DNA of 59,936 bases from Chloroflexota bacterium (lineage in GTDB: Bacteria; Chloroflexota; Anaerolineae; UBA4142; SHND01), in the NCBI GenBank assembly GCA_016209205.1, contig JACQWQ010000065.1, positions 1 to 59,936 on the forward strand, written 5' to 3'. A program made the translations under genes and the position numbers. Below, piece by piece: positions 10,346-55,998 of the stretch. Position 1 is the first letter of the stretch; each line of letters opens with the position of its first letter. The notes beneath the pieces were generated by a model. That model worked only from the letters and a program-made list of their open reading frames with translations, was not told the DNA's origin and made no database searches.

Positions 10346-12324
10346 TTACGCAGCGTACTCCTCGACGTCGATCACCTCCACGCCTTCTGCTTCGAACCGC
10401 GCTTTGGTTTCCTCCAGATTCTCGAACACCTGCACCGAATAGATATCCGGTCTGGACTCGACCAGGTTCGCTCCAAGCCGTTCGACAATCAGATTCTGTG
10501 CTTGCCCTTCGAGACGATTCAGAATCCGTTCCGCTTCGGTGGACTTGCCGACGTAGATGCGCCACCACACATTGGAGAGATCACTTGCACTCGCTTCCTT
10601 CTCAGCCGCTTCTTCTTCAGCACTCTCGGTTTCCGACTCCTCATCTTCAACGACTTCGACAGCACGCGGATTGCGGCGCTGGCGCTTGGCTTCAAATTTA
10701 CCTTCGCGGCGCGCTCGCTTCTGCGCGCGTTTGCGAGCTTCCTCTTGTTCCTTTTGCTCTGCGATCCGAGCGCGTTCGCGTTCCAATTCGGCTTGCGCTT
10801 CTTCCGCCGCTTTGCGCCATTCCGATTCCTCGGCTTCGATCTCTGCCGCCAACATCGCCCAGCTCTCTCGCGCGCGTTCTTGCCCCCGCCACACCTGGTT
10901 CCAACGGTCCTGGTCTTTTGCGTACTTCGGCTGCTCCCAGAATTCCATCTTGACCTGAGCGTTTTCGCCGATCACACCGGTCGCGACCAAGAACCACGCG
11001 CCTTTTTTATCGCGGCGCGCGAGGGTGAGTTTCCCCAAATCGGCTTTGATCTTGGCCGCGAATTCCGTACCTTCGCGGCGCAGCATGGTCGCCACCGCGC
11101 GTTCCAGTTTCTGCCCGCGCTCGCGCACACCCTCTTTCGCCGCAGCGGTCAATTCTTCCGTTCGCCGACGCAGCGCGGGAATTCGACTCCATTCTTCGGC
11201 GTACTGCCGCTGCAGCTCGCTCACCCGATTCCAACCGCCCGGCTGCGCCGCAGTGGTCTCAACCTTTGCCAGCGCCGTTTCGATATCCTTTTGCCGACGC
11301 GCCGATTTGATTTGACGCTGCAGCGGCTCAATGAGTTCCTTCGCCGCGCCGCCGTCCGCCGCTGCTTTCAAGAATTTCTCTGCCGCGTCAAGTCCTTGCG
11401 CGCGATGGCTTCGCGCGCCGCGGCGAGATTCGCGGGCGTATCCATCTCTAAACGCAGTCGCTTGATGGCGTGCGCGTGTCGTTTCGAGATCGCGTCCATC
11501 TGCGCATCCTTGCCCAACTGCTGTTCGACCTGCGCGACGACATGAGGAAACCGATCCCGGCACACAAGCAATTCGCGCAGCGCGTCGCGCAGCGCGAGAC
11601 ATTCCGGGGCACTGCCGGCACGCAGGTCTCGCGCTCGCCCAGCCCATTCGGCAGCGCCCGTCTTGATCTGGTCTAGCCGCCGCGCGCAATCCTCTCGGGC
11701 GGGCTGCAACGCTTCGATCTGCCCTTTGTAGGGCTTGCACCGCGCGGCGTGTTCGGCGTCGAGCTGCGCGCGAGCGTTCCTGATTTTTCCAAGTTGAATG
11801 TTCAGCGCCAATTCGATATCGCGCTCGAACTGCGCGCGACTCTCTGGAGAAAGAGTTTCCCCTTTGTGCGCCAGTTCGGCAGCTTTGGACGTGACGCTTT
11901 GTTCTTGCCGTTGGAGGTCCGCATAGCGCGGCGCAAACTCGGCATCGATGCCCTGCGCATCGGCATGGATGTGTGCGAGTTTGGCTTCAATCGTTTGTAG
12001 TTCCGCACGCGCGGTTTCCAACTCTTCTCGCGCCGCCACTTCTGCCGCGCTCAACGCTTTCCCCAGCGTGACTTCGGCGTCGATCACGCGCTCGTACGCG
12101 CCTCGCAAATCTTTTTGCTGATATTCTTGCAGCACATTTTGTTCGAGCGACTCGAACGTCAATTCCACCGCTTCCGGCTGTTCGAACAAATCCGCATTCT
12201 CATTCGCCATCGCGCTCATCAGGACAGCGAGATAACGGTCCAGACGGCCATCGGCATCGTGGGCTGGAATCAACAGGGGATAGGAAGTTACGGTGTCTTG
12301 GGTCGGATTGGTTTGCATAAACAT
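10346..12324 (-). pseudogene. Large coiled-coil protein interrupted by a one-base frameshift
   Basis: Two frames on the minus strand belong to one protein. The first (ATG 12324, after GAGGAACCGAAA) encodes about 310 residues, largely helical (SAAEVAAREELETARAELQT). The second continues from near 11,395 to a stop at 10346 with more coiled coil, a Lys/Arg-rich stretch and a folded end with WWRIYVGKSTEAERILNRLE. Around 11390 the reading passes from IARKDL into DAAEKFLKAAADGG if one base is added in CTTGACG. It is either a true frameshift mutation or an assembly error. The full product would be about 658 residues. Function unknown; the layout suggests a DNA- or filament-associated scaffold. Confidence 0.6.
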
Positions 12325-12395
12325 TTTCGGTTCCTCTTTGGACTGCGCATTGCCAACCGGAATGCCGGTTATCGCCGCGCAGATTTTGGAAATGC

Positions 12396-12437
12396 AAAAA
12401 AACGCGCGTGTGGCATTGTTGCCACATGCGCGTTTTT
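12396..12437 (-). terminator. Terminator after the small basic protein gene
   Basis: An inverted repeat of about 18 bp (ACGCGCGTGTGGCA against TGCCACATGCGCGT with one mismatch) with A- and T-runs on both sides. It overlaps the stop of the 82-residue gene, so it is probably its intrinsic terminator. It precedes the coiled-coil gene by about 70 bases. A second small hairpin (AACCGGCATTCCGGTT) lies between at about 12355-12370. Confidence 0.7.
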
Positions 12438-12684
12438 AGTCATCGGTGCGCGTTCCAGAGCCAGGAGTTTCTTTGACGCGCTCAACACCACATGTTAGAA
12501 TGTGGTCAGTTTCAAAACGTTGCCGGGCTCGCTTGCTTGCGCGTCCGGCGTGTTCAAAAAGCAGAGCCGTCAACTCTGCTTTTTGTTGTTCTTGTGGTTG
12601 TGGATTTCCTCCTTTGGCGGTGTCCGACCCGTGGCTGCGAACTTGGTTTTTGCTCGCGTTGCATTGCGGTCGGCGAAGCGCCAA
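12436..12684 (-). CDS. Small basic protein with TTG start, unknown
   Basis: A TTG at 12684 lies six bases after AGGAGG (12691-12696), an ideal distance; the ATG three bases upstream in another frame is too close to the site. The 82-residue product is rich in Arg, Lys, Gln and Thr (ASKNQVRSHGSDTAKGGN; GRASKRARQRFETDHIL) and may bind nucleic acid. No family recognised. Hairpin 12555-12585 lies inside the coding region. The start choice is firm, the gene itself less so. Confidence 0.4.
   Translation of the reverse strand: MALRRPQCNASKNQVRSHGSDTAKGGNPQPQEQQKAELTALLFEHAGRASKRARQRFETDHILTCGVERVKETPGSGTRTDD
12555..12585. other. 11-bp hairpin inside the small basic gene
   Basis: AAAAAGCAGAG (12556-12566) pairs with CTCTGCTTTTT (12574-12584) across seven bases and ends in a T-run in both directions. 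One of four similar hairpins spaced about 150 bases apart between 12396 and 12927. Confidence 0.6.
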
Positions 12685-12699
12685 TCATTTCCTCCTGAA

Positions 12700-12743
12700 A
12701 TGAGAAAAGGACGCATCGAATTTGTGATGCGTCCTTTTCTCAT
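12700..12743 (-). terminator. 18-bp leader hairpin before the small basic gene
   Basis: Arms 12700-12717 (ATGAGAAAAGGACGCATC) and 12726-12743 pair perfectly. On the minus strand the 3' arm ends three bases before AGGAGG (12691-12696). Same architecture as hairpins 5017, 5515 and 9052. Confidence 0.75.
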
Positions 12744-41055: not shown

Positions 41056-41158
41056 GTCCCATTTCCGCATAGCCCGCGTCGTCGCCCAGGGTGCGACGTG
41101 AGGTGAAAATCACCGCGTAATACGGCGGACGCGGCATGGATTGATTGGGGCTGCTCAT
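41021..41158 (-). pseudogene. Antibiotic-biosynthesis-monooxygenase (ABM) fragment
   Basis: 45 codons starting with ATG 41158, which overlaps the stop of the ligase gene (ATGA). The sequence RPPYYAVIFTSRRTLGDDAG, then YAEMGLMSRL, matches the start of ABM-type proteins (YYAVIFTS, then DNGY, then EMA). The remaining ~50 residues are missing and the end overlaps the convergent membrane-protein gene. Formerly coupled to the MshC-like gene; now truncated. Confidence 0.5.
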
Positions 41159-42411
41159 CCAGGAAACCGATTGATGTGCTGCTCCCACCCGAAACGCACA
41201 CGCGCTTCGGGTCCGTACGCGTCGAGTCGCAGACCAAAAATGCTCGCCGCGCGGCGCAGCCACGTTTGCGCCTCGCGCACGTCGCGCCCCACGTCGGCGT
41301 GCTCGAGGATCGCATTGGACAATTCGCACAACACGTTTGCCGCCGCCGGGGAATTCAAATCGTCGTCGAGCGTGCGTTCGAACGCCGCACGCGCATATTC
41401 AAAATCCATCGCGTGCCTGTCACCGCTCGATGTCTGGACGGCTTGCGTAAGCTGTGTGCATTCCGACAAGCTCGTGTCCAGATCGGCGGACGTAAATTCC
41501 CACGGCTTGCGATAGTGATGTTTCGCCAAATAGAGCCGCAGGGAATCGGGGGTGTGTTGTTTCAACAAGTCGGACACCATCACCAAATTCCCCAGTGACT
41601 TGGACATCTTTTCACCGTCGTATCCCACCATCGCGGTGTGCATCCACAACCGCGCAAAATAATTTTCCCCTGTGAAATTGACTGTCTGGGCGATTTCGCA
41701 CTCGTGGTGCGGAAAGACCAGATCTGCGCCGCCGCCGTGAATGTCAATCGTCGGTCCGAACGTTTTGTAATTCATCGCCGAACACTCGATGTGCCAACCG
41801 GGGCGTCCGGGACCCCACGGCGAATCCCACGCGGGTTCGCCCGGCGCTTGCGCTTGCCACAACACAAAATCTAACGGGTCGCGTTTTTTCGGGTCGTCGG
41901 GAAAATTGCCGCGCTCGTTCGCAATCGCCAGCATTTCACTTTTCGGAATGTGTGACAGCTGTCCGAATTTGTCGTACGCGCTGACGTGAAAATACACGCT
42001 GCCGCCGGACTCGTACGCGAAACCTTTTTCAATCAGTTTTTTATCAAACTCAATAATTTCGGGAATGACGTCGGTGGCGCGCGGGTAATGGTCGGGCGGG
42101 CGCACGTTCAGCGCGATCATGTCGCGAATGAAATGCGCCGTCCACGTATTGCCGAGCTCGCGCCAATTCGTGCCGCGTTTGGGCGCTTCGCGAATCGTGT
42201 CGTCGTCAATGTCGGTGACATTCTCGCAATAGTCCACCGTCGCGCCGCGATATTCCAAGTACCGCACGAGCACGTCGAACGCGCAATACGTCGCCGCGTG
42301 TCCCAGATGCGTCGTATCGTACGGCGTGATGCCGCAGACGTACAGTTTTACGGTGTGAGCTTGCGGCTCGAATTCCTGGAGGGATTGGGATTGGGTGTTG
42401 TAGAGTTTCAT
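41155..42411 (-). CDS. MshC/CysS-type cysteine ligase
   Basis: ATG 42411 (MKLYNTQSQSLQEFEPQ). Class I synthetase signatures are present: YVCGITPYDTTHLGHAATYC (HIGH as HLGH, in the form typical of mycothiol ligase MshC rather than CysS), ENVTDIDDDTI, GRPGWHIECSAM (zinc site), DIHGGGADLVFPHHECEIAQ and MVGYDGEKMSKSLGNLV (KMSKS). At 418 residues it is MshC-sized, shorter than most CysS. It activates cysteine with ATP and joins it either to tRNA or to an amino-sugar. Mycothiol outside Actinobacteria is rare, so the true substrate is open. Two broken copies of its 5' end lie upstream. Confidence 0.8.
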   Translation of the reverse strand: MKLYNTQSQSLQEFEPQAHTVKLYVCGITPYDTTHLGHAATYCAFDVLVRYLEYRGATVDYCENVTDIDDDTIREAPKRGTNWRELGNTWTAHFIRDMIALNVRPPDHYPRATDVIPEIIEFDKKLIEKGFAYESGGSVYFHVSAYDKFGQLSHIPKSEMLAIANERGNFPDDPKKRDPLDFVLWQAQAPGEPAWDSPWGPGRPGWHIECSAMNYKTFGPTIDIHGGGADLVFPHHECEIAQTVNFTGENYFARLWMHTAMVGYDGEKMSKSLGNLVMVSDLLKQHTPDSLRLYLAKHHYRKPWEFTSADLDTSLSECTQLTQAVQTSSGDRHAMDFEYARAAFERTLDDDLNSPAAANVLCELSNAILEHADVGRDVREAQTWLRRAASIFGLRLDAYGPEARVRFGWEQHINRFPG

Positions 42412-42581
42412 GGGAAAAATTATAGCACGAGAAAATAAATATTTTGCATTGCGCAATTGTTGAAATTCGTTCCTAGCGCGCGTATAATCGTCTCATCGTG
42501 CAGCGTATCTTTGTTCCTTGATTCTCTTTCTCCCCATTTACGCTTGGGTTCAGCATTTTCCCGTTTGTCTCTGGTTTCTCG

Positions 42582-43627: not shown

Positions 43628-44027
43628 CGCCGGGGCGCCCCGGTCCCCACGGTGAATCCCACGCGGGTTCGCCCGGCGCCTGCGCTTGCCACAAGACAAA
43701 ATCCAACGGATCGCGTTTTTTCGGGTCGTCGGGAAAATTGCCGCTAAAATGCGCCGTCCACGTATTGCCGAGGTCGCGCCAATTCGTGCCGCGTTTGGGC
43801 GCTTCGCGAATCGTGTCGTCGTCAATGTCGGTGACGTTTTCGCAATAGTCTACCGTCGCGCCGCGATATTCCAAATAGCGCACGAGCACGTCGAACGCGC
43901 AATACGTCGCCGCGTGCCCCAGATGCGTCGTATCGTACGGCGTGATGCCGCACACGTACAAACGCACTGGATGCGCGAGCGGGTCGAATTCTTCGAGACG
44001 TTGGGATTGGGTGTTGTAGAGTTTCAT
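43628..44027 (-). pseudogene. Partial second copy of the MshC-like gene
   Basis: ATG 44027 starts MKLYNTQSQRLEEFDPLAHP, nearly the same as the gene at 41155-42411, through the HLGH motif to GNTWTAHF. There about 90 codons are deleted and the sequence resumes at SGNFPDDPKKRDPLDFVLWQ, then stops matching at GRPG, where it meets the toxin remnant. Both catalytic ends are lost. Similarity to the first copy is high, so the duplication is not ancient. Confidence 0.85.
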
Positions 44028-44060
44028 AATGGAAAATCTGAGGGAGGGTGGTTTCGGGAA

Positions 44061-44639: not shown

Positions 44640-44738
44640 TTATTCCTCCGGGGGCAAGTATAACGCTAATATGGTATCATCGTTTCCATGTGGCTCAAAT
44701 TCTTGCAGGGCTCGGGATTGGGTGTTGTAAAGTTTCAT
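44640..44738 (-). pseudogene. Third 5' remnant of the MshC-like gene
   Basis: 32 codons from ATG 44738: MKLYNTQSRALQEFEPHGND, then unrelated codons to a stop at 44640. The start matches the other two copies. Its last codons hold the GGAGGAAT that serves the Uma2 gene, so Uma2 seems to have been inserted into, or joined to, a copy of the ligase gene. Confidence 0.7.
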
Positions 44739-44766
44739 ACGCGAAATTATATACGCGAAAAAGAAA

Positions 44767-44800
44767 AATGCGGACGCTGAGTTGAATCAGCGTCCGCATT
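44767..44800 (-). terminator. Terminator of the DpdA-like operon
   Basis: AATGCGGACGCTGA (44767-44780) pairs perfectly with TCAGCGTCCGCATT (44787-44800). On the minus strand it is followed by TTTCTTTTTC, an intrinsic terminator five bases past the transglycosylase stop. Confidence 0.85.
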
Positions 44801-44805: not shown

Positions 44806-45975
44806 TCATAACTTGAGTCCCTTGGCGCATAAGAATGCCTTGTAATACTTTGTGTTCTTGAGACGGGAATCTACAAATTCCTCAAATCTGCCCTTTTCGA
44901 TTTCTGCGCGTGCGCGTTTGGCTTCAAAATTGAAGACCCAAAGATTGTGACACGCGCGATTATGTAGGTGACGATGTCCTTTGCGGTCAGTCATGGTGGC
45001 GATGTATTGGTCCAGGTCATCTTCATTGGGATTGTCGAGGATTTCTCCCGTTTCCCAATCCTTTACAAAAAAATCTTCTTCGTCATATAACCTGAAAATC
45101 AATTCCTTCATTTTTGACAGACGCTTTTGATATTGATAAGGGTTTGCCGCGCGCTCACGGGTGGCAAGACGGATAATATGATGCCCAGGCAGTTGAACAA
45201 ACTTGAACGCTGCGCTCATAATCCATGTTTGCGAATCCACCGTATCAGCGCCGCAGTAAAACGCGAGCAACATCAAGAGCGATGACCCCATCGAGAAACA
45301 ATGTAAATACACATCGGGCAACTGCCGGCGAACTTCCGTTAGCACTTGTACGGCAAGTTCTTTGTTGCCATTCTGCGCGAGCGGAGCAAGACTGCCAATA
45401 CCAACTTTGTCGAACCGTCCCCCATTATGCTTTTCGGCGATTTTTTCAAGACGGTCAATGGTTTTCTGGATCGTTTTGGGGTCATGCCCATGCACTACCG
45501 GTAACAAGTCAAACAACGTTGCATCATTGGAGTCAAACGCCGCGAACATCTTTCTGGTGTTATCCAACGTGCGATTGATGCGCGCTTGTTTGTCCGTGGC
45601 TTTGGGCGGAAACGGATGATCAAGCACAACGCCCAAATCAGCGCCGGATGCTTGTTCGACTTGAAGCACACGTGTGGGACTGATGTGGACGTGCCCGCTG
45701 CGCAGAAAATAGTACGCACCCGAATCAATCATCAAGGGACCGTTGAACTCAATATGTTCGCGGATGGTTTTGTTTTCCTTTGCCAAGCGATTCCGATACC
45801 CAGAGCATTTTGGATTCTCGATGAGGTCATAGGCGTTGACGAGGACGGCTTGCGTGTTCGTGATTTTCCACGGAAAGAACTTGACGCCCGCGGAAGTAAC
45901 GTCACCGAGGCGGTAACTGGCAAAGAGATTGGGCGTTTGCAGCGAGTGTTCGCCCAATTGTAGGGATTTTATCAT
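44806..45975 (-). CDS. dpdA: DpdA-like 7-deazaguanine transglycosylase (TGT superfamily)
   Basis: 389 residues from ATG 45975. The TGT barrel is clear: PLMIDSGAYYF (Asp 84, like DSGGFQ), GVVLDHPFPP (Asp 119, like DECTPYP), LLPVVHGHD, KVGIGSLAPL (like GGLAVGE), and GADTVDSQTWIMSAAFKFVQ then LPG, with Asp 247 in the nucleophile position. The TGT zinc motif CxCxxC is absent (HLHNRACHNLW instead), which argues against an ordinary tRNA enzyme. DpdA proteins exchange guanine in DNA for preQ0. The neighbours, a precursor transporter and a large helicase, support that reading. The base and DNA site are unknown. Confidence 0.75.
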   Translation of the reverse strand: MIKSLQLGEHSLQTPNLFASYRLGDVTSAGVKFFPWKITNTQAVLVNAYDLIENPKCSGYRNRLAKENKTIREHIEFNGPLMIDSGAYYFLRSGHVHISPTRVLQVEQASGADLGVVLDHPFPPKATDKQARINRTLDNTRKMFAAFDSNDATLFDLLPVVHGHDPKTIQKTIDRLEKIAEKHNGGRFDKVGIGSLAPLAQNGNKELAVQVLTEVRRQLPDVYLHCFSMGSSLLMLLAFYCGADTVDSQTWIMSAAFKFVQLPGHHIIRLATRERAANPYQYQKRLSKMKELIFRLYDEEDFFVKDWETGEILDNPNEDDLDQYIATMTDRKGHRHLHNRACHNLWVFNFEAKRARAEIEKGRFEEFVDSRLKNTKYYKAFLCAKGLKL

Positions 45976-45989
45976 TTGCGGTAAGCTTG

Positions 45990-47270
45990 TTATGATGGTT
46001 TGTTGACTTGACAGATTTTTTCTCGATTTACAAGAAATTGAGACTGGCATTTCAGAAACTGAACAGTATTGTGCATAGTCCATCGTTGAGAAACAACTCG
46101 CTTTGGCAAGAAATCCCTTTTCCCAAATCCTTGCCCATACCTCCCAAGAGCTTGAAGCATTCGATCAAATGCTACAATCTCCGCTTGTACAGGCGGAAGA
46201 ATTTTCGGAACATAATAAACGTTCCCGTCTATCAGCTGAAAAAATGGTTGGAGATATTGAAATAAGAATTGAGGATTCAATATCCGAGGGTCATACTTGG
46301 AAAGATGACCAAGCGTTGCAGTTGCAATTTTGCCTGCCTCCTGAAAGAGTGACGTATATTCTCGTTCAGAAGCAACAATCAGCCCTGCTTGTTTAAGGTA
46401 GTGATGGTAGAGACGATAAGCGATAATGTGTGCAATAAAATCATGATCTCCGGCTGGCTGGACTTGGATGATTTCGGTTTCCTCGGCAATTGGTTTTTGT
46501 AGAACTAACATGCAATATGCGCGTCCCGTTTGTATTTCTCGTGACAAAGATTGAACAGGAACTTTAAACCAGAATACGCGATGCTTTGTCTCAATGTGGG
46601 GAGTTTTGAGTAGCACTTCACCCGGTCGCTTGTCAAGGATTACACCTACTACCGCTCTCGTATTTATGTATTCTTCGCGTATCTCATCGTGATTGTCACG
46701 TAAAAAGACCTTGCGGTAATTTGCAGCGGAACCAAAATCTAGCAAGGTGTCGCCAATTTCCTTTAGAAAAGGATAAAATTTCCAATCGTAAAACGTACTT
46801 TGTTGCTCGGCTGAACTAATCGTCGAAGCCCAAGCAGGATGGATCTCGTTCGGTGGATTCAGTGCGTATTTTCCTTCGAATAAGAGTACCTTATTCTTTG
46901 CTTGTAGAATATCGACTATTTGACGGTACGTTTTTTTTGAACTCTCTGAATGTGAAGGCCACAAAACGACAGTCACAAAGTTCTCCAATTCTGGACTTAT
47001 TCCATAATAGACAACAACCCAAGCATCTTTTCCAAAATAGACTCGCTTTGCAGGTGATTCATCTATATTGAGTATCCCGACAGTCAATGGCAAAAAGTCA
47101 CCAGAGACAGTACCACCTTTTCTAACTGAATGTCCCCACGCCTCGTTTAGTGAACACAGGAATCTGCGATCCTCAATCACTTTCGCGGCGAATGAGCCGC
47201 CCTTTTCGATTTGACCCAAATCCAATTCTTCATCATTGTTGATTTTGTCGAGTGCTTGATAGATGTCCAT
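45990..47270 (-). CDS. Unknown 426-residue protein of the DpdA-like operon
   Basis: ATG 47270 lies ten bases after the helicase stop; its own stop is 14 bases before the transglycosylase start, so it is in the same operon. The protein is mixed alpha/beta, with no signal peptide (ESPAKRVYFGKDAWVVVYYG; AYCMLVLQKPIAEETEIIQV; DHDFIAHIIAYRLYHHYLKQ). A segment KTPHIETKHRVFWFKVPVQS could be a strand-rich core. I recognise no family or catalytic motif. Its position suggests a subunit specific for this system. Confidence 0.65.
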   Translation of the reverse strand: MDIYQALDKINNDEELDLGQIEKGGSFAAKVIEDRRFLCSLNEAWGHSVRKGGTVSGDFLPLTVGILNIDESPAKRVYFGKDAWVVVYYGISPELENFVTVVLWPSHSESSKKTYRQIVDILQAKNKVLLFEGKYALNPPNEIHPAWASTISSAEQQSTFYDWKFYPFLKEIGDTLLDFGSAANYRKVFLRDNHDEIREEYINTRAVVGVILDKRPGEVLLKTPHIETKHRVFWFKVPVQSLSREIQTGRAYCMLVLQKPIAEETEIIQVQPAGDHDFIAHIIAYRLYHHYLKQAGLIVASEREYTSLFQEAGKIATATLGHLSKYDPRILNPQFLFQYLQPFFQLIDGNVYYVPKILPPVQAEIVAFDRMLQALGRYGQGFGKRDFLPKRVVSQRWTMHNTVQFLKCQSQFLVNREKICQVNKPS

Positions 47271-47280
47271 AGTTACCCAT

Positions 47281-50200
47281 TCATTTTACCTTCCAATCGC
47301 GCGACTGTTCCTCAAGGTGATTAATTGTCTCAAGCGTGCCGGTTATCCATTCAATATTCTCGTCGCCAAAGCCAAAATCATAGGTGTCACTGTTCTTTTT
47401 TGTCTCCGGTGACAAATTAGCTGTCATGTGCACAGCGCAAGCTGTTGGCAGAGTCGGATCAATAGTGACCTGTTTCAGGTGGGCAATTCCAGTTTGACTT
47501 GATGAAGGGACTGGCACAGCGAAGACTTTTACCTTTACACCAGCTCGTGACAGCTTTGTTAGAGCATTCTTGTGAGAATCCTGATTGGGTTCTCGCACAA
47601 TGGTTGTTACATCTGCTCCATTTTGCCTACACCGAATCAAGATTTCCACCCAACCTATATCCCCATCGGGCCAATCAACGGGGTCATCGGTTACGTACAG
47701 TGAAACTACTTTTATCTCTTTCTGGGCGCTGAGTAAGCGATCTCGCAACTCGATTGCGCCGCTCACCGAATTCGGGTCTGACGTGATGTTAAGAATTCGT
47801 TTGCCAATGTATGGCTTGATACTACCTAACGTAGAAACAGCATTTTGTGAGTTTTCTCTTTCGACCTGCTTGAAGAGATCACGAACTAGCCGTTTATCAA
47901 TCAGTGGAATATCACGTTTACGCCGATACGCCCATAGGCATTTGATACATCCAGACTCGCAATCGCACTCCAAAAGCACACGATTCGCAGCTTTTGTCAG
48001 CACCTCATCAAAGCGCTCAACAATCTGCTTTACATATCCAACTCCACCGTCCACGTTATCAAAAAGCACAATCATTCGAGTATCGGGTTTGATAACTCCG
48101 TCTATCTCGCCTTCTTCAGCATTGACCATAATTTCGCTTGCGCCGATAAGCGCGTTCTTGAGTGTCGTCAAAAATTTTCGCACATCGGTGTTTTGAGGAA
48201 GAAGTATAGGATCAACTGTGAATGCTATTGCACTTGTATTAAAGGTATGGAACAAATTAGCTTTGAAAGATTTCCCCTTGCACACACGCCGCCAGCTGAG
48301 ACGATGATTACCCTCCTGCTCGAATTTCGTCAATAGTCGTCCACATCGCTCACAGATCGTGAACTCTTGGACACCACTGGGTGTACTTAGACCAGTTGTT
48401 AAAGTTAGAATTTCCTTGATTCCCAAGTCTGCGATTCTTAGCCCTTTGTACGTTTCTTTCCAGTCTGTCGCAGTTTCTTCGAGACTGATTGGAGACAAAA
48501 CGAAATGATCAATGTTTGGTTGTATAAACTCGCGCCCTTCCTCACTTGGACGATTCTTTTGATCTACGATTACCATCTTGGGGGCAATGCAGTCTTCAAA
48601 GAGCTGATAGCCAAGTGTACTTTTGCACTGCGGGCAACCTCCTCGTGACTTGGGTTCTTGTTCCGTGGCGTACAGCCTGCAATTTTTGCAGACCCAGAAG
48701 CGGCGGCTCGATCTGCCTTCGGGTTCTTGCTCAAAATCAAAACCAGTCACTTCATACTTGTACTTTTTCATATAGAGCTGCATTCCAGGTGCCAACTCGC
48801 TAACCGCAATCCGTGCTGCACGATCGCCAAATTCCTCTTGTTCTGACGAAATAACTTCGACCGCCTTTCCTGGGAAGGCATAGCCCGGGATCACTTCCGT
48901 GCGGCTAAAGTGAGACAGCACATCACGGCTAGAGAGGCCATCAGGAAAACCGCTCAGGCGAGAATCAATGTTCTCTTCAATACGACGCAAGCGCCACCGC
49001 TCCTCGTCATACTCTTTCCCAGTTTTCCCCCGTAGAGCTTTCTTCGATTCATCTACTTCATCATATATAGCGCGTAGTATTTGGTCCTCTTTTTGGTAAC
49101 GTTCGATAGAGATTCTGAGGGTCTCAGGGAAACGCTCTACGCGTTGTTGAATTTCACTTGATGTCAACCATTGGATATCAGAAAACGTCCGAGCAATTTT
49201 TTCTTGGATGCCTTTTCGCTGCAAGGAAAGCTGGTCTGTTATCAGGACATACTGCTTTTCGGTAATAAAATCTTGCATGATCCCCTTTAGAGAATCTGAA
49301 AATGGTGCATGAACGAACAACTCCTCGATTATCAGCGAATTGACATGGCGATCTACAATCGTCCGATTATCGAGACTGATGAACGGTGCCCTGATCGTAC
49401 CGGACATTATTTCCTTTGGATTGCGAAAATAATACATATCCAAAGGAGTCTGGAACTGAAACGCCGTAGTAAGAGCGATTTTCTTTTCGCGCCCAGCGCG
49501 ACCTGTCCGCTGGGCATAACTTGCAGGTGATGGCGGACTCTTGGCAAGCCCTATTGAAACCAAGTCACCAATATCAACACCCAATTCCAATGTTGGTGTG
49601 CTGACGATTAAATCAACTTGTCCTGCCTTGAATCTATTTTCGATCTTCTGCCGTTCTGAGAGTTTGAGACTCCCACTATCTTCCTCCGCAATCATTCGGC
49701 GTGCCAGAAGGTCCCGATAAAAGCGGAGGTGAAAATTCTTACTGTCTTCATAATATTCAGCGGCTTGGATTTCGCGTAATGGTTTGGAACCCTTACAGAA
49801 CCAATACAGGCAGGATTTTGATGGCAGAGTACCGTTGTAGGTATTCTGGCAGCTGTCACATTTCAGTACTGTTTGAGGAACCCTCAAAATTACTTTGCTT
49901 CGATCTACTACATAAGCTGCCATCTTATGCTTAGGATATCTTCCGATTTGGGCTTCTTTTAGAATTGTGGATTTCCGCAAGAAGTCCAATGCACTCTTGA
50001 GAATATCAGGAGCGTATGGTTTTCCAAATACTCGCTCGGTGTAGCGCAGCAATGTTCCCCCAGACAACGCTCCTTTGATTTCATACGATGAGGTATTTTC
50101 ATTTTTCTTTGCTTCAAGATTGTAACCCGTTGGAACATTTTGAGCGCCAGCATCCCATTTCTCCAAACCACTTAGGGCACGCTCACGCCGAATAATGTAC

Positions 50201-52695
50201 AAGAGCGCGTGAAGGTATTTACGAAAGAATTCCGAGTCAATGCCTTTTGACTTCAGCAATGACTGTAACTGTTCATTCTGCCTGATATGATTATTGAATG
50301 AATCTATGTCGTGAATTCCACGGTATGTAAATTCCACTAACCCAAGACTCTCGACAGATCGCTGCTTGGCGCGAGAAGCGATCTCCTCAATAATCTTGAT
50401 TAAACGATATTGACGATCCGTTTCCTCTAGACCGCGCCCTGCCCATTCTTCGAACTTTTCGAGAATCCTCGTCTCAATCTGTTGGGCATCGGCAATCCCA
50501 CCATGCTCACTACTCAAAACTTGAAAGATAAGTTGGCGGATTGCATGGGTCAGGTGCTCATCCTCGATCGTTGCTGCTACATACGATGCATCCTGTCGTG
50601 AGTCGGAAAAGATAAGTGTCTTCCGCAAATTCTCCGGCAGTTCCCCGTATGTGATGTCAAAGACTACCCTGCTGGTTGTGTTGGGACTGATGTAAAAGGG
50701 TGTTACAGCTTCTTGCTGACTACCATAAGTACGGTCGCAGAACGGGCAATGAGTTATGCGATCATAGGTTTGTACTTGGCGGAGGTGTGGCATTCTTGCG
50801 GGACAGGTAGAGTGAGAACCATTTGTCAACGTGCCGCACGACACGCATTTTATGAGTTGTTTACCCTTGTGTTGTCTGTCTGGCTCTTCAAAGGTTTGCC
50901 AAAGCGACGTAGCGTTCGGCTTCTCAGGGAACTTTTCAAACCGTCCAGCCAATCTCTTTGCAGTGAACTGTGCATCTTTCCCAAGGGTCTCTAATGCGCC
51001 ACGCGATTTTTCGTTAGGGTTTTTGTCAAACGTAGCACGATAAAACACCTCACCACAAAAACGACATACTCCAAGCTCTTCAACAACAGCGTGGCAGTTA
51101 TCACAATAGTCGCGCGGTGCCGCAAACAATTTATGGCAGTCGGTGCATCCGTAAATCTCACCATTCGGAAAAGTTTCGCCCAAAGTCTTGTAAAAGGAAT
51201 GAACTTGTGGCCGAATAAGCGGAACCAATTGCTCTGAGGAAGAAAGTTTGGGGTCAGAAGCCAAACTTGCCAAGTAAAGGCACTGCCATAAATATTCTGC
51301 GCGTTTCTTCGATGATAATCCATTCAGGAAGTTCGCGACACTTTCATCAGCTAGCAGATCATCCAGTAGCGCACTAGGGCGTTCTGGCCGTTTAGAGAGC
51401 GTCCCGACCAATTTCTGGAAGATGATATTGCCCGCGATCAATGACCCCAATAAAACGCCTCGATTTTCATTCCGATCTGCTCTTTCCAGAATTTTTGTAG
51501 GAGCGACGGATCTGCAAATACGTTCGAAAAGATCCGATGGGACATCCAAGTTCTCTGGATAATTGCCCAGAAGAATTGGTTCGTCAGGGAAATAAGACGC
51601 GTCTGGGGATGTGATTGGCTTGGGGGTTTCCAAAATAACGCTATCTGCTCTGACTGATGCACCAAAAAAGCGGGTTGCAAAACGAGCCACTGATGCACGA
51701 CGCTCGGTTTCGTCTTGATGTGTAGAGATAGTAGCGCTTGTTCCAACAAGCTGCAGTTTGTTGATTCCAATCGAACGGAAGCGTTCTCGCAACCTTCTGA
51801 TTAGTAACGCAACTTCAACACCACGCGCTCCGGCATAAGTGTGAATTTCATCGAAGACCAAAAAGCGAAGGGCTTGACCATTAAATATCTCCGAGTCGCG
51901 TTTGCGCAATAAAAGATATTCCATTTGCACATAGTTCGTGATCAGAATATCAGGCGGATTTTCGCGCAATTCCTTACGCGTCAACTCTTCAAAGTCAACT
52001 ACCAAGTCGGGGTTCTTTGTGCATACCAAACGTGTTTCAGACTTGGCTTCGAGCAACATTCGGTTTTCACAATCTTTTGTACACTGGAAACCCACCACTT
52101 CACCCCAGAGCGGACATCGCTGCAAAGGAATCTTGGCTTTGATGTCTCCTACGTCATCTGGAGTATCGCCGATGTAACGACCAAGGGTGACTCGCTTTCC
52201 TGTTTCGCGGTTGAGAAAGTAAATGTAATGGCGCAAGCGGTCAATCTGATCATTTGCTAAAGCATTCATGGGATACACGATTATTGCCTTCACACCGCGT
52301 GAGCCATGCTCGCGTAGGCAGTAATCCAAGATTGGAATCATAAAGGTTTCGGATTTACCACTCCCTGTGCCCGTGGCAACGATCGTGTGATGTCCTTGTG
52401 CAATCGAGCGGATAGCTCTTTCCTGATGAAGAAACAGCTTTCGAATTGCAACCGCCTTTGCCACTTCATTTGAGATACCAATATCCTGCAATAATTTCTC
52501 GCCGGATGCTTCATTTTGGGCATATTGACGCGCGATTGTGACGAATGGTCCATTCCAAAGTAAGCTTTCTTCATCAGTCAACGCATCAAACTCGCGTCGA
52601 AGCTTGGGATCAATGATTGGGAAAGCGCTTGTAATGAAATTCTTGTAGTTTTGTTGAACACTCTTGACGACTTGCAATGGTCGAAATTCTTGCAT
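47281..52695 (-). CDS. SF2 helicase with DUF1998 and C-terminal PLD-like domain
   Basis: 1804 residues from ATG 52695, after GAGGTG. Walker A ATGTGSGKSE is at 108-115, DEIH at 282-285, SAT in LVGTSATIS and motif VI QRTGRAGR. Between the RecA-like halves lie zinc-finger-like Cys pairs (YGCTDCHKLF; YCDNCH; CRFCGE; CVSCGT; CPFCDR). A DUF1998-type part with FDNVDGGVGYVKQI, then CDCESGCIKCLWAYRR, follows, as in MrfA and the DISARM protein DrmA. The last ~200 residues look like a phospholipase-D fold with one HxK (AHLKQVTID). In Dpd and DISARM systems helicase, DUF1998 and PLD functions are often separate genes; here they are fused. Confidence 0.85.
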   Translation of the reverse strand: MQEFRPLQVVKSVQQNYKNFITSAFPIIDPKLRREFDALTDEESLLWNGPFVTIARQYAQNEASGEKLLQDIGISNEVAKAVAIRKLFLHQERAIRSIAQGHHTIVATGTGSGKSETFMIPILDYCLREHGSRGVKAIIVYPMNALANDQIDRLRHYIYFLNRETGKRVTLGRYIGDTPDDVGDIKAKIPLQRCPLWGEVVGFQCTKDCENRMLLEAKSETRLVCTKNPDLVVDFEELTRKELRENPPDILITNYVQMEYLLLRKRDSEIFNGQALRFLVFDEIHTYAGARGVEVALLIRRLRERFRSIGINKLQLVGTSATISTHQDETERRASVARFATRFFGASVRADSVILETPKPITSPDASYFPDEPILLGNYPENLDVPSDLFERICRSVAPTKILERADRNENRGVLLGSLIAGNIIFQKLVGTLSKRPERPSALLDDLLADESVANFLNGLSSKKRAEYLWQCLYLASLASDPKLSSSEQLVPLIRPQVHSFYKTLGETFPNGEIYGCTDCHKLFAAPRDYCDNCHAVVEELGVCRFCGEVFYRATFDKNPNEKSRGALETLGKDAQFTAKRLAGRFEKFPEKPNATSLWQTFEEPDRQHKGKQLIKCVSCGTLTNGSHSTCPARMPHLRQVQTYDRITHCPFCDRTYGSQQEAVTPFYISPNTTSRVVFDITYGELPENLRKTLIFSDSRQDASYVAATIEDEHLTHAIRQLIFQVLSSEHGGIADAQQIETRILEKFEEWAGRGLEETDRQYRLIKIIEEIASRAKQRSVESLGLVEFTYRGIHDIDSFNNHIRQNEQLQSLLKSKGIDSEFFRKYLHALLYIIRRERALSGLEKWDAGAQNVPTGYNLEAKKNENTSSYEIKGALSGGTLLRYTERVFGKPYAPDILKSALDFLRKSTILKEAQIGRYPKHKMAAYVVDRSKVILRVPQTVLKCDSCQNTYNGTLPSKSCLYWFCKGSKPLREIQAAEYYEDSKNFHLRFYRDLLARRMIAEEDSGSLKLSERQKIENRFKAGQVDLIVSTPTLELGVDIGDLVSIGLAKSPPSPASYAQRTGRAGREKKIALTTAFQFQTPLDMYYFRNPKEIMSGTIRAPFISLDNRTIVDRHVNSLIIEELFVHAPFSDSLKGIMQDFITEKQYVLITDQLSLQRKGIQEKIARTFSDIQWLTSSEIQQRVERFPETLRISIERYQKEDQILRAIYDEVDESKKALRGKTGKEYDEERWRLRRIEENIDSRLSGFPDGLSSRDVLSHFSRTEVIPGYAFPGKAVEVISSEQEEFGDRAARIAVSELAPGMQLYMKKYKYEVTGFDFEQEPEGRSSRRFWVCKNCRLYATEQEPKSRGGCPQCKSTLGYQLFEDCIAPKMVIVDQKNRPSEEGREFIQPNIDHFVLSPISLEETATDWKETYKGLRIADLGIKEILTLTTGLSTPSGVQEFTICERCGRLLTKFEQEGNHRLSWRRVCKGKSFKANLFHTFNTSAIAFTVDPILLPQNTDVRKFLTTLKNALIGASEIMVNAEEGEIDGVIKPDTRMIVLFDNVDGGVGYVKQIVERFDEVLTKAANRVLLECDCESGCIKCLWAYRRKRDIPLIDKRLVRDLFKQVERENSQNAVSTLGSIKPYIGKRILNITSDPNSVSGAIELRDRLLSAQKEIKVVSLYVTDDPVDWPDGDIGWVEILIRCRQNGADVTTIVREPNQDSHKNALTKLSRAGVKVKVFAVPVPSSSQTGIAHLKQVTIDPTLPTACAVHMTANLSPETKKNSDTYDFGFGDENIEWITGTLETINHLEEQSRDWKVK

Positions 52696-52717
52696 AATGC
52701 ACCTCGTTATCCATGCT

Positions 52718-53164
52718 CTACATCTGCTGAAGCCAAAGCTTCATTGCGGCCATCTTTTTCCCGATTCCACCTTCCGCAAATCTTACTTTTGCGCTTGGCG
52801 GCAACAGGTCAAATCCACCCATCGCCACAAGATAGGTCTTTCCCATGTTAATGAAAATCTCTTTATATTGCTTTTCGTTTATCTTTTTCCATTCTCGCGC
52901 AACCTGTGCTTGCAATTCATTTGCCCGCTGCTTATCCATCCGTTGGTCATAATGAGGAATCGGCGTCTGCGCGTCAATCAATCCAAATTTCGCGGATAGA
53001 ATTTTCACATCCACATTTTCGGGGAACTTGCCTTCGCGCTGCAATTTGTGAATCACGCGATAGTTGACGCCATCATACCGTTCGATGGCAGGCATTAACC
53101 CTTTCGTGCGGATTTTTCGGTTCGAGCAAGCAATTAAAAGTAATTTTCGTGATTTGGTTGACAT
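52718..53164 (-). CDS. DUF6884-type protein
   Basis: 148 residues. RKLLLIACSNRKIRTKGLMP, then AIERYDGVNYRVIHKLQ, is the DUF6884/YaaA-like start (a C-S-x-R-K turn after a first strand). It continues with VKILSAKFGLIDAQTPIPHY and a helical C-terminus. Such domains are found near or fused to DpdA-like and other DNA-modification genes; biochemical role unknown. It ends 22 bases before the helicase start and is in its operon. Confidence 0.7.
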   Translation of the reverse strand: MSTKSRKLLLIACSNRKIRTKGLMPAIERYDGVNYRVIHKLQREGKFPENVDVKILSAKFGLIDAQTPIPHYDQRMDKQRANELQAQVAREWKKINEKQYKEIFINMGKTYLVAMGGFDLLPPSAKVRFAEGGIGKKMAAMKLWLQQM

Positions 53165-53310
53165 CAGCCCTCTAAAATGCTATAGTAATTCCAGCGACTC
53201 ATAAGTCCTAGTGTCACTGGCTCCATATTTGGGAGTCCCACTCCGTCGCAAGCGGACGCGTCCGCTTCCAGACGGTGGTTATCGGTGCCTGGGGTGAGTT
53301 GCTCTGATGG

Positions 53311-53395
53311 TAGAAAGTAAGTCCGGGTTACGGTGGGACGGCGGTTCGCCGCTGCTCACCCTTTATGGGTAAACACCGTCCGGGGTTTCTACCAT
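53311..53395. ncRNA. Structured intergenic element, possible small RNA or mobile-repeat remnant
   Basis: GGTAGAAA pairs with TTTCTACC to close a multibranch fold. Inside are CCGG/CCGG and CGGTG/CACCG pairings, a GGCGG-TTCG-CCGCT hairpin and an ACCC-TTTAT-GGGT hairpin. A T-rich tract follows on the plus strand. Nearby at about 53255-53272 AAGCGGACGCGTCCGCTT is a perfect 18-bp palindrome. The gap 53165-53388 has no coding frame. It does not match RNase P, tmRNA or tRNA as far as I can see. Confidence 0.35.
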
Positions 53396-54024
53396 TTTTC
53401 TTTTTCATCCCACCGCACGACACGATACATCGCGATTTTGCTCCGAATCAATTCCTCGTAACGCGCGTCGTCATGCTTGTGCGCAAAAGCCACTGCGCCC
53501 GCAACAAAATCTGCCAAGTTAATACGCGACTCCTTCATGCTGTCAATCGCAAGAACCTGAATCGTCTCATCGAAATCTGCTTCAATCAATTGACTCCGCA
53601 CGCGCTCGTCCACCTCACGCGCAAAGTGGCTGTCGAGAAAGACCCGCCGCAAGTGAGGGAACCGTTCCAAACAATAGGGCAGGATTTGCCGCATGAGCAT
53701 GGCGTGATTGCTTGGCGTGTCCGGAATCGTGAAACCCTTTTTGTCCACAACCAAAACGAAAAGTGTAACCGCTTCTTGTTTCAATGCGAGCAGAACTTGG
53801 CGGCGAGTCTTGTCACTGGTTTTGAAAAATTTCAATTCTGCCAATTGCCGTTCGCGCTCGCGAGTTCCCTTGCCCGGTAATCCTCGACGTATTTTCGGTA
53901 TCAATCGCTCCAAACCCCGGTCTTGAGCATCTACAACAAGAACGGCAACGACGACAACGGGCGCGCTGAGATCTGGCAGCGAACCACTCTCATCAACAAA
54001 CGCGAAAAATTCAACCTGCGACAT
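53389..54024 (-). CDS. DUF3800 protein (RNase H-fold, putative nuclease)
   Basis: 211 residues. The DUF3800 marks are FAFVDESGSLPDLSAPVVVV (first Asp-Glu), VTLFVLVVDKKGF, RRVFLDSHFAREVDERVRSQ and QVLAIDSMKESRINLADFVA (last Asp with the LADFVAG helix). The fold is of the RNase H type with an acidic cluster. Such genes are common in defence islands. Its start overlaps the transporter stop (TGATG), so the two are coupled. Confidence 0.8.
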   Translation of the reverse strand: MSQVEFFAFVDESGSLPDLSAPVVVVAVLVVDAQDRGLERLIPKIRRGLPGKGTRERERQLAELKFFKTSDKTRRQVLLALKQEAVTLFVLVVDKKGFTIPDTPSNHAMLMRQILPYCLERFPHLRRVFLDSHFAREVDERVRSQLIEADFDETIQVLAIDSMKESRINLADFVAGAVAFAHKHDDARYEELIRSKIAMYRVVRWDEKEKW

Positions 54025-54704
54025 CAGGTCGAACCCTCGCTCATTTTGAGCGGATTAAAATCGGCGCCGCGATCATAGACATCCAAGTTCTCTGCGCGTT
54101 TTAACCAACCCACCACCATGTATGTCAGCGGCGTCGCAATCACTTCATAGACAACCTTGAAACCCCACTGCCCGATTACCGCGTTTACCATCCCATCCAG
54201 CGGAATAATGCCCGCGAACGCAATCGTAATAAAAACGAGCGAGTCCAAGCCCTGACCGATGATGGTCGAGGCAATCGTGCGCGTCCACAGCCAACGCCCG
54301 TTCGTCGCGATTTTCATCTTTGCCAAGACCAACGAATTCGCAAACTCGCCGACGAGATACGCGAGGAAGGATGCGATCAGCAAACGCGGCGTGAAACCTA
54401 AAATCGTCTCGTACGCGCTCTGCCCTTGCCAAAACGACGCGGCGGGCAGCAATCCGGCTACCCAAATCGCAACCACCGCGAGCAGGTTGCAGAAAAAGCC
54501 CAGCCAGATTACGCGGCGCGCGGCGGCGTAACCGTAAACTTCGGTGAGCACGTCACCGACAATGTAACTGATGGGGAAAATAATAACGGCGGCGGGGAGA
54601 ATCAATCCGAAAACATCAACCAGTTTGACGGCGATGATGTTTGCGGTAATGAGGCATGTGACAAAGACAGCCGCGATGATCACAAAGTAAGGTGAGTTGC
54701 GCAT
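54024..54704 (-). CDS. yhhQ: Queuosine-precursor transporter, YhhQ/VUT family
   Basis: 226 residues from ATG 54704, with GGAG five bases before it. Six to seven membrane helices fit the family: VIIAAVFVTCLITANIIAVK at the start, then PAAVIIFPISYIVGDVLTEV, then YGYAAARRVIWLGFF (the signature ISYIVGDVLTEVYGY), a second half with FLAYLVGEFANSLVLAKMK and ASTIIGQGLDSLVFITIAFA. The family imports preQ0, preQ1 or queuine. As first gene of an operon with a DpdA-like enzyme it would supply the 7-deazaguanine base. Confidence 0.9.
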   Translation of the reverse strand: MRNSPYFVIIAAVFVTCLITANIIAVKLVDVFGLILPAAVIIFPISYIVGDVLTEVYGYAAARRVIWLGFFCNLLAVVAIWVAGLLPAASFWQGQSAYETILGFTPRLLIASFLAYLVGEFANSLVLAKMKIATNGRWLWTRTIASTIIGQGLDSLVFITIAFAGIIPLDGMVNAVIGQWGFKVVYEVIATPLTYMVVGWLKRAENLDVYDRGADFNPLKMSEGST

Positions 54705-54734
54705 GAACACTCCGGAGCAATAGGATTAAACCAC

Positions 54735-54763
54735 ATTTTAACAAAACAAATCAGACCTGACAA
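54735..54763 (-). promoter_or_regulatory. Sigma70-type promoter of the transporter-DpdA operon
   Basis: On the minus strand TTGTCA and TAAAAT are 17 bases apart; the transporter start is about 31 bases from the -10 box. The -35 box overlaps a CAGACCTGACA repeat unit (54752-54762), so a dispersed repeat seems to supply part of the promoter. Confidence 0.7.
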
Positions 54764-55093: not shown

Positions 55094-55453
55094 ATGAACA
55101 AAATCATCGGCGTCACCGAGTTACAGCGCAATTTCCGAACTGTGTTTGACCAAGTCGTGAACGAACATACGCCGTACATCCTCACACGCGGCAGCCGTCC
55201 CGAGGCGGCGATTATTCCGTATGACCAATACCTCAAATATGTTCAGGCGCACGATAAAGAGGTTCACGCCCGGTTCGACGCTCTGTTGGAGCGCATGGCA
55301 AAGGTGAACGCGAAATTCTCGGACAAAGAGGTCGAACGTGATGTAGAAGAGGTATCCCGCGCCGTAAAGGCGCGACGACGGCTGCGTGACAAAAGGCAAA
55401 ATTATCGCGTTGCCAAGCCCAATGCCCCGCGATCACCCAAGGCGAAAAAATGA
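55094..55453 (+). CDS. Phd/YefM-family antitoxin
   Basis: 119 residues, with AAAGGAACGTAAAGC before ATG. The N-terminal MNKIIGVTELQRNFRTVFDQ, then VVNEHTPYILTRGSRPEAAI, is the Phd DNA-binding dimer fold. A charged helix and a very basic tail (RRRLRDKRQNYRV) follow. It neutralises the PIN protein encoded next and should repress the promoter at 55029. Its stop overlaps the toxin start (ATGA). Since the toxin is broken, the antitoxin may now be free. Confidence 0.85.
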   Translation: MNKIIGVTELQRNFRTVFDQVVNEHTPYILTRGSRPEAAIIPYDQYLKYVQAHDKEVHARFDALLERMAKVNAKFSDKEVERDVEEVSRAVKARRRLRDKRQNYRVAKPNAPRSPKAKK

Positions 55454-55998
55454 CACGCGCGGTGGTTGACACAAACATTCTCATTCGAGCGGTCATTCGC
55501 CCACTCGGCACAGTCGGTCCCATCGCGCGCCGCCTGCGTCAGGGCGCGTATGTGCTAATCATTTCAGAGCCACTCTTGCACGAATTGATTGAAGAACTGA
55601 ATGCGCCGCGCATTGGGCATAAGTACGGAATAGACGCACAAGCTATTCAAGATTTTGTCGCAGAGCTCGCCGAAACCGGCGAGTTGGTTCAGCCAAGCCG
55701 CACGATAGCCGTATGTCGTGATGAGGACGACAACCGCGTACTGGAAGCGGCAGTAGAAGGGCGCGCCAACTATATCGTCACCGGAGATAACTACTCAGCC
55801 CACCTGTCATTTCGAGCGGATGCGAGAAATCTCAACCGTCGAAAGACCGAGATTTCGGCGACGCAGTTCGTCGCAACTCCGCTTCGAAATGACACCTGAG
55901 TAGTTACCAACGGAGATAATGACCTGCTTGTGCTTGATCCGTTTGAGGGGATTCGCATCGTCACTCCCCGCGCGTTTCTCTCTGCCTTGGATGGTTAG
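55450..55998 (+). pseudogene. PIN toxin split by a palindromic element
   Basis: The first 115 codons are a normal PIN domain: TRAVVDTNILIRAVIRPLGT with the first Asp, SEPLLHELIEELNAPRIGHK, and CRDEDDNRVLEAAVEGRANY, then IVTGD. The element at 55791-55911 follows. The current frame reads into it and stops at 55899. Beyond the element the old frame resumes as GDNDLLVLDPFEGIRIVTPR, then AFLSALDG, to a stop at 55998. The lost end carries the last strand of the fold, so activity is doubtful. Confidence 0.9.
55791..55911. mobile_element. 121-bp palindromic mobile element with 8-bp target duplication
   Basis: GGAGATAA stands on both sides (55783-55790 and 55912-55919). The ends are inverted (CTACTCAG and CTGAGTAG), and inside are TGTCATTTCGAGCGGA and its inverted partner TCCGCTTCGAAATGACA. 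It has no gene of its own. The insertion site and duplication can be read directly from the interrupted PIN gene. Confidence 0.85.

Follow-up and report, generated by a model that had tools for sequence, protein, structure and literature searches.

A Chloroflexota operon joining a transglycosylase without zinc motif to DUF6884 and helicase-nuclease genes, a candidate system for 7-deazaguanine marking of DNA

We analysed a stretch of 59,936 nucleotides (nt) from a Chloroflexota bacterium (contig JACQWQ010000065.1 of assembly GCA_016209205.1; this whole stretch is called the window), in which six minus-strand genes between positions 54710 and 44806 form an operon (Table 1). All six reading frames are open and contiguous. 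The transporter and DUF3800 genes overlap by 1 nt, 224 nt separate the DUF3800 from the DUF6884 gene, and the remaining gaps measure 22, 10 and 14 nt in order. The window proteins were scanned with four profile libraries, including Pfam, PADLOC and NCBIfam, where for the helicase the best 25 of 56 PADLOC matches and likewise the best 25 NCBIfam matches were listed. The matches agree with the gene content given earlier by a reading of the letters alone (the sequence-only reading): a queuosine-precursor transporter, a DUF3800 protein, a DUF6884 protein, a helicase-DUF1998-PLD fusion, a 426-amino-acid protein for which none of the four libraries gave a family, and a transglycosylase-like enzyme lacking the usual zinc motif. 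The operon that this reading described thus stands, but its promoter and terminator are less clear than claimed. The region holds 21 promoter-like sites against 14.7 ± 4.2 in shuffled sequence, which is not clearly above chance, and 14 terminator-like sites against 13.9 expected by chance; the hairpin behind the last gene ties for the longest stem listed. An Rfam search up to E 1 found no preQ1 riboswitch ahead of the operon.

Table 1. Features of the six-gene operon and its flanks, in the order of transcription
Feature	Position	Strand	Remarks
Promoter-like site, TTGTCA-17-TAAAAT	54735..54763	-	10/12 consensus, ahead of operon
Queuosine-precursor transporter (YhhQ/QPTR/Vut_1), 228 aa, GTG start	54024..54710	-	Vut_1, TIGR00697
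DUF3800 protein, predicted nuclease-like, 211 aa	53389..54024	-	28.6 bits, cut-off 21
Second, weaker tandem DUF3800-III RNA match	53307..53395	+	31.9 bits, E 5e-4, below gathering score
DUF3800-III RNA match, antisense to operon	53191..53305	+	39.1 bits, E 3e-6, below gathering score 43.8
DUF6884 protein (YaaA/DpdC-like), 148 aa	52718..53164	-	39.2 bits (Pfam), cut-off 30
YprA/DruE-like SF2 helicase, MZB (DUF1998), C-terminal PLD, 1804 aa	47281..52695	-	Predicted effector
426-aa protein, predicted OB fold at about residues 160-298	45990..47270	-	Model and OB-fold matches
Transglycosylase-like enzyme without zinc motif, 389 aa	44806..45975	-	PF01702, 83.8 bits, cut-off 26.3
Terminator-like hairpin	44767..44800	-	14 pairs (8 G-C), then T-rich tail, 3' of last gene
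aa, amino acids.

The last gene encodes a relative of the tRNA-guanine transglycosylases (TGT). Besides its Pfam match the protein scored 86.6 bits with the archaeosine TgtA model (cut-off 350) and 23.8 bits with the DpdA model NF041059 (cut-off 200). An alternative ATG start at 46083 would give 425 amino acids; the start of the 389-residue form at 45975 better matches the starts of the closest homologues. A homologue search with this enzyme counted 435 proteins with E of at most 1e-10. The 120 top-ranking ones were listed, and the window enzyme is among them. Aligned with five sequences from fetched loci they gave a family alignment of 125 distinct sequences, in which one locus row is nearly identical to a listed protein. 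Positions D84 and D247 hold an aspartate in all 125 rows, and a profile alignment places their motifs on the DSG and FDS of the archaeosine TGT 1iq8, whose catalytic aspartates are known as D95 and D249. The CxCxxC zinc motif was found in none of the 125 rows, window enzyme included, as the sequence-only reading had remarked for this protein. The histidine aligned to what is presumably the zinc-site histidine of TGT structures is kept throughout (125/125). Among 13 comparison sequences CxCxxC occurs in 12, namely the genome's own Tgt, two annotated DpdA proteins, seven haloarchaeal rows, Aulosira and the distant locus L037, and is missing from a short Nostoc TGT only. It lies 17-25 residues ahead of an HNL or HNV histidine in 10 of these 12, the two DpdA rows having no such histidine.

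Structure prediction of the 389-residue enzyme, a check that had been proposed with the sequence-only reading, returned a TGT fold. The AlphaFold2 model (predicted local distance difference test, pLDDT, 89.9; predicted template modelling score, pTM, 0.91) reached a TM-score over the query of 0.72 to 1iq8 and of about 0.7 to the Zymomonas Tgt. Of the features of a Tgt the enzyme has the catalytic aspartates and the fold, while the CxCxxC...H zinc site is absent. In a tree of 43 transglycosylase sequences the 30 family rows form one group (support 100/99) that excludes Tgt, DpdA and the haloarchaeal rows. A placement among tRNA transglycosylases with tRNA activity had been named as what would refute a DNA-modifying role; the family groups apart from Tgt, though very long branches separate the groups and the order of the groups is unsafe. 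The housekeeping Tgt is a separate gene of the same genome (C33) on a long, distant branch, and the operon enzyme was accordingly rejected as the genome's Tgt. A phage origin found no support either: a pattern scan of viral contigs gave no relative, and among 50,697 phage records only two STSV1 sequences matched (27%, half length). Profile searches and the fetched loci show that the family crosses phyla.

Its most constant companion is DUF6884. We fetched 16 family loci (L005-L017, L035, L036 and L054), keeping the distant L037 apart and dropping L018, in which no TGT open frame matched. A DUF6884 gene lies near the transglycosylase gene in 14 of the 16; in the two exceptions, L006 and L035, the contig breaks off on the upstream side. 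The CxxxK and LSAxxG motifs are invariant in all 13 DUF6884 proteins aligned. Pfam's authors describe these motifs together with a kinship to the DNA-binding protein YaaA, and YfjM, a DUF6884 protein, is among reported binders of abasic and ribonucleotide lesions (PMC11701544). DpdC, placed in PF03883 like YaaA, is described to turn dPreQ0 into dADG (PMC12839542), and the GATOR-GC work names DUF6884 as the domain of dpdC and reports YhhQ near some dpd islands (PMC11888242). For the window protein the PADLOC matches to DpdC are weak (best E 1e-4), and against solved structures its sequence gave a single match at chance level. An annotated cyanobacterial DpdA encoded on a Nostoc plasmid (L033) is a fusion of DUF6884 (residues 61-169) and TGT (371-555). 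The same fusion is suggested for a long haloarchaeal protein (L030), with both parts below their cut-offs (DUF6884 28.7 bits, cut-off 30; TGT 14.5 bits, cut-off 26.3). From its relatives, the window's DUF6884 protein is predicted to tailor or to read the inserted base. The Nostoc plasmid, which is typed as conjugative, carries at 6560-12741 the DUF6884-TGT fusion and a second short TGT between two helicases.

The largest protein of the operon carries DEAD, Helicase_C, MZB and PLDc_2 domains, all over cut-off in one chain, such that the proposed fusion of helicase and PLD is confirmed. MZB is the MrfA Zn-binding domain, formerly DUF1998. Walker A (GTGSGKS) lies at residue 109, VFDEIH at 280 and the PLD motif HLKQVTID at 1739; the HxKx4D motif is intact in the window helicase, in the homologue P0131 and in L006. 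Among the PADLOC matches listed DruE1 scored 446 bits (seven DruE models, 270-446) compared to 128 for DpdJ. The DruE match is not diagnostic of Druantia, because sequences grouped with ARMADA in the helicase tree match the same models.

The model of the 426-residue protein (pLDDT 78, pTM 0.83) matched OB folds. Since the structural alignments (VIA-align) tie among many OB-fold families, we name none of them. A neighbourhood search for this protein with the helicase, likewise proposed beforehand, found the pair in L006, where the homologue adjoins helicase and transglycosylase (contig of 5,814 bases; P0013, the TGT, and P0125). Further pairs emerged from equal contig sizes, which are good but indirect evidence for one contig: P0131 (helicase, 82% identical), P0122 (426-residue homologue, 70%) and P0007 (TGT) come from contigs of 36,001 bases, and TGT P0012 and 426-residue homologue P0124 are both listed with 45,623 bases. 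A distant homologue (P0127, 33%) and a DruE-like helicase (P0160) both lie on contigs of 17,104 bases; the OB-fold protein may therefore belong to the helicase and not to the TGT. The 426-residue protein is predicted to be a DNA-binding partner of the helicase.

Comparison of the loci revealed that the genes around the pair of DUF6884 and transglycosylase change. In L005, a Chloroflexota metagenome-assembled genome, the order is transporter, DUF3800, DUF6884, NurA, HerA and TGT, i.e. NurA and HerA occupy the place of the window's helicase and 426-residue genes. Identity to the window is 74% for the transporter, 68% for DUF6884 and 77% for the TGT, and a DNA alignment of both loci consists of three stretches (the transporter; the RNA with DUF6884; the TGT). 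In the TGT tree the L005 enzyme (P0004, contig of the same size) groups with P0007 and P0009 (94/90).

The helicase-PLD protein with the 426-residue protein occurs in the window and L006, and NurA with HerA in L005, L014 and L054, while L016 has NurA alone and a DruE-like piece at the contig end. Genes for a PIN-like protein, an unknown protein of about 300 amino acids and a BrxC/D-like ATPase are found in L007, L009, L010, L012, L013, L017 and L036 (with only part of the PIN gene in L012 and a split one in L036); of this set L035 shows just the ATPase, at the end of its contig. L008 and L011 combine the HerA-NurA and PIN/BrxD-like sets; L015 is too short to tell. Some genes are incomplete: in L011 those for PIN, ATPase and NurA are in pieces, and the TGT of L017 comprises 127 amino acids. 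The domain names of these effectors rest on one or two members each, with NurA at 17.7 bits (under the cut-off of 21), HerA at 337 bits in PADLOC, PIN_4 at 17.6 bits (under 21.9) and BrxC_BrxD at 30 bits (over cut-off), to which the other members were matched by phmmer. The transglycosylase-DUF6884 pair is thus a module that occurs with three or more types of effector, and the term "minimal variant" used in the sequence-only reading understates this. Among 84 genomes of the phylum to which the Poribacterial locus L010 belongs, the profile found the family in 8, the distant L037 counted in; for the phyla of L014 and L006 the numbers are 2 of 291 and 1 of 290.

In order to see where the base could come from, we turned to the transporter, which matches Vut_1 at E 2e-54 and TIGR00697 with 129 bits (cut-off 51) and is 70% identical to the L008 protein. 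It is the only Vut_1 match of the window's genome. This genome (94% complete) has QueA and its own Tgt; a profile search gave no QueC match and for QueF one match of 25.6 bits, below cut-off, in a frame of 426 amino acids and none of full size. A cell that has QueA, but neither QueC nor a QueF of full size, should depend on preQ1 from outside for its tRNA. In E. coli this transporter family is reported to transport both preQ0 and preQ1, and in other bacteria to feed tRNA queuosine (PMC11570991). Together these data favour the imported base that had been proposed.

Base supply was further compared in 13 genomes, i.e. the window's own and 12 reached via the loci; QueA was looked for in the window's genome only, and ECF-type transporters were not searched. 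Nine of the 13 lack Vut_1 and have a QueC of at least 178.8 bits; the other four have Vut_1 with at least 115 bits, and QueC is either absent from them or scores 25.2 bits at most. The transporter gene lies inside the operon in three of these four (window, L005, L008). Full-size QueF matches of 104.7-115.7 bits were obtained in nine of 16 genomes (two of the frames with a stop). Partial matches occurred in G403 (29.3 bits over the cut-off of 27.3, 61 of 81 positions) and, below cut-off, in G406 (27), G000 (25.6) and G400 (22); G410, G411 and G652 gave none.

The DUF3800 protein is probably accessory. A DUF3800 gene sits at the same position in L005 but its product is only 25% identical, and no match was found in the other loci searched. 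The 224-nt gap behind it holds two tandem Rfam DUF3800-III matches antisense to the operon. Over 118 nt this RNA-bearing stretch matches its counterpart in L005 with 87% identity, and there the RNA (4605-4719, minus strand) scores 46.7 bits, above gathering; seven other loci gave none at gathering score. The difference between 87% for the RNA and 25% for the proteins would fit a replacement of the DUF3800 gene next to an RNA that stayed conserved.

The nearest described system is BRIGADE, of which the window operon is a variant and not a member. As in the window, YprA helicase and PLD nuclease stand in BRIGADE together with a predicted pathway for 7-deazaguanine (PMC12458937). According to the preprint of Bell et al. 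(2025), BRIGADE is reported only in halophilic archaea and usually comprises a pair of helicases, with a biosynthetic cluster and a nuclease gene in the neighbourhood (PMC12458937). The window in contrast stems from a bacterium, to judge by the QueA and Tgt of its genome and by its nearest syntenic record, a Chloroflexota metagenome-assembled genome. The operon has one helicase with the PLD fused to it, the search for helicases having been confined to the operon, and instead of a biosynthetic cluster with QueC it has a transporter. In a quick tree the window helicase falls into a separate group (Shimodaira-Hasegawa-like approximate likelihood ratio test, SH-aLRT, 99) from two Haloferax helicases, to which we ourselves gave the BRIGADE label. 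All seven short haloarchaeal TGTs compared carry CxCxxC, unlike the window enzyme.

Seven of 17 matched haloarchaeal plasmid records were compared as loci (L030, L031, L039-L043), and their parts recur in varying arrangements. A TGT with a gene for about 298 amino acids and a BrxD-like ATPase is present in L030, L031, L039, L040, L041 and L043 (with a fragmented ATPase in the last), and in L042 a standalone DUF6884 gene lies beside TGT, PLD and helicases. Helicase(s), PLD, DUF6884 and TGT are combined in L042 and L043. L041 and L043 hold a queuosine-precursor transporter, and L031 and L040 hold QueC, FolE and QueE. From their gene content we read these plasmid loci as putative BRIGADE systems.

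With Dpd the operon shares a transglycosylase, a YprA-like helicase and a PLD domain, and its DUF6884 protein may be a counterpart of DpdC. The sequence-only reading had taken it for a DpdA-like system. By the defining families it is not Dpd, given the low score with the DpdA model (23.8 of 200 bits), no DpdB match and a helicase that is nearer to the DruE than to the DpdJ models and fused to its PLD; what holds in outline is the Dpd-like idea of a deazaguanine system with imported base. Likeness to Druantia is found in the matches to seven DruE models and in the C-terminal PLD. The DruE of Druantia III is described as a helicase-PLD nuclease, where mutation of the active PLD pocket abolished defence (PMC13192584). 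The window protein has one PLD match in place of two domains and is linked to a transglycosylase and DUF6884, and PADLOC gave no DruH or DruA-D match in the other five proteins. BREX-Related Capture (BRC), a proposed 7-deazaguanine-marking defence, joins a TGT with HerA/FtsK and BREX-like ATPases (PMC12839542). PglZ, DUF6079, STAND NTPase, DUF4007 and HerA are absent from the Pfam matches of the six window proteins, from the PADLOC matches of the five other than the helicase, and from those listed for the helicase. The BRC authors state that they found no DpdC homologue (PMC12839542), whereas DUF6884 is nearly constant in the window's family. Within a search outside most subscription journals, and as far as the text was accessible, we found no description of this family in the literature on Dpd, BRIGADE and BRC.

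The sequences themselves show which genes the operon holds, that their motifs are intact, that transglycosylase and DUF6884 are linked in several phyla and that the genes around this pair change. The reading of these data to which we give a probability of roughly 60% is a restriction-modification-type defence, in which the zinc-motif-less transglycosylase would mark the cell's own DNA with an imported 7-deazaguanine and the helicase-nuclease would destroy unmarked DNA. The transporter would import preQ1 and/or preQ0, as its family and the missing QueC and QueF suggest. The transglycosylase, with both catalytic aspartates invariant, would insert the base into DNA, and the DUF6884 protein as a relative of YaaA and DpdC would tailor or read it. 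Following the example of the Druantia III DruE, the YprA/DruE-like helicase-PLD protein may load with the OB-fold protein on unmarked or replicating foreign DNA and cut it. The DUF3800 gene and the antisense RNA would form an accessory cassette.

Several observations weigh against this proposal. Action of the family on DNA cannot be read from a tree whose branches are this long. Helicase, 426-residue protein and TGT are seen together directly only in the window and L006, the other cases being connected via equal contig sizes. Where sampled the family is rare: of 400 genomes of the window's phylum, the profile found it only in the one that holds the window. No DpdB match was obtained for the six proteins in the four libraries (for the helicase, among the matches listed); DpdB is reported as dispensable in some dpd clusters (PMC12839542). 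The relation of transporter and QueC is confounded by phylogeny, as the four transporter genomes comprise that of the window and three from Chloroflexota or Anaerolineae; many genomes of this phylum carry Vut_1 anyway (94 of 201), and the genome of L011 has its transporters outside the locus. By the curated cut-off G403 (22.5 bits) and G406 (best 25.2 bits) are QueC-positive, such that 11 of 12 genomes are positive; we read these two as other proteins, because about 47-70 of 210 positions are covered in frames of 305-516 amino acids. Given QueA and Tgt in the genome, the transporter may mainly serve tRNA queuosine.

The last point leads to readings without a DNA mark. If the transglycosylase modified RNA, be it tRNA or phage RNA, the helicase-nuclease would be a separate defence gene on the same transcript. 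The 50 structural matches listed are indeed all titled tRNA-guanine transglycosylases, the nearest solved relative by sequence is the archaeosine TGT, and the transporter family serves tRNA queuosine elsewhere (PMC11570991). With a housekeeping Tgt already in the genome, and the family tied to DUF6884 (fused to an annotated DpdA) and lying beside DNA helicases, NurA and HerA, we nevertheless regard this as unlikely. Still less probable is that transporter, transglycosylase and DUF6884 serve ordinary queuosine salvage and that the defence helicase is nearby by coincidence. A genome with QueA, Tgt and the operon's Vut_1 but no QueC match does need salvage for its tRNA; yet the DUF6884-TGT pair is also found in Vut_1-free genomes with strong QueC, near nuclease or ATPase genes (except on the short contig of L015).

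About as improbable, perhaps by a hair less so, is a Type IV-like system, in which transglycosylase and DUF6884 would recognise or strip phage 7-deazaguanines before the helicase-nuclease attacks. Phages with 7-deazaguanine DNA are described (PMC6884629) and the reported binding of lesions by YfjM (PMC11701544) counts in favour, but Vut_1 or strong QueC in 13 of 13 genomes points to use of the base by the cell itself, for which tRNA queuosine alone could be the explanation. In a base-excision type of restriction the transglycosylase would remove guanine from unmodified foreign DNA, and DUF6884 and nuclease would process the abasic sites. The TGT reaction passes via a covalent Asp-sugar intermediate, which counts in favour, as does the reported link of DUF6884 to abasic sites (PMC11701544). 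Such a scheme leaves the transporter unexplained, and no sequence-specificity domain was matched in the window proteins by the four libraries; we hold it for very improbable.

Beyond DNA marking in the window, the data tentatively suggest, at somewhat below even odds, a separate class of immunity: a self-marking cartridge of zinc-motif-less DNA transglycosylase and DUF6884, present in several bacterial phyla, that has exchangeable effectors (Druantia-type helicase-PLD, HerA-NurA or PIN/BrxD ATPase) and can subsist wholly on base scavenged from other microbes. The mark in the window could then be the aminomethyl base dPreQ1 or imported preQ0. If so, one marking pair would serve very different nucleases, and the separation of marking and cutting could be tested by effector swaps. 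A genomic mark whose precursor must be taken up would make self-protection hinge on the environment and the metabolism of neighbours. The zinc-motif-less family would furthermore offer a new point of departure for putting 7-deazaguanines into DNA.

Some of the fetched loci carry additional genes. The Poribacterial loci L007, L009 and L010 have SspC- or SspD-like genes alongside, and L007 and L010 also an HNH nuclease gene; a double mark with DNA phosphorothioation is possible there. In L008 macro-domain-like and DarT-like genes, judged by eye from N-terminal residues, follow HerA at 10156-12005. The distant L037 (G412) has a CxCxxC-bearing TGT, a DEAD helicase of 1356 amino acids and DUF6884 close by, and is perhaps a bacterial BRIGADE- or Dpd-like locus.

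In the window itself, a pair of Phd/YefM antitoxin and PIN-domain genes at 55094-55899 is divergent from the operon. On the other side (41155-42456, 43630-44040 and 44689-44751), the full cysS gene is followed by incomplete copies of its 5' part, one of them just downstream of the operon terminator and one beside a Uma2 gene. This points to insertions that recurred at the start of cysS.

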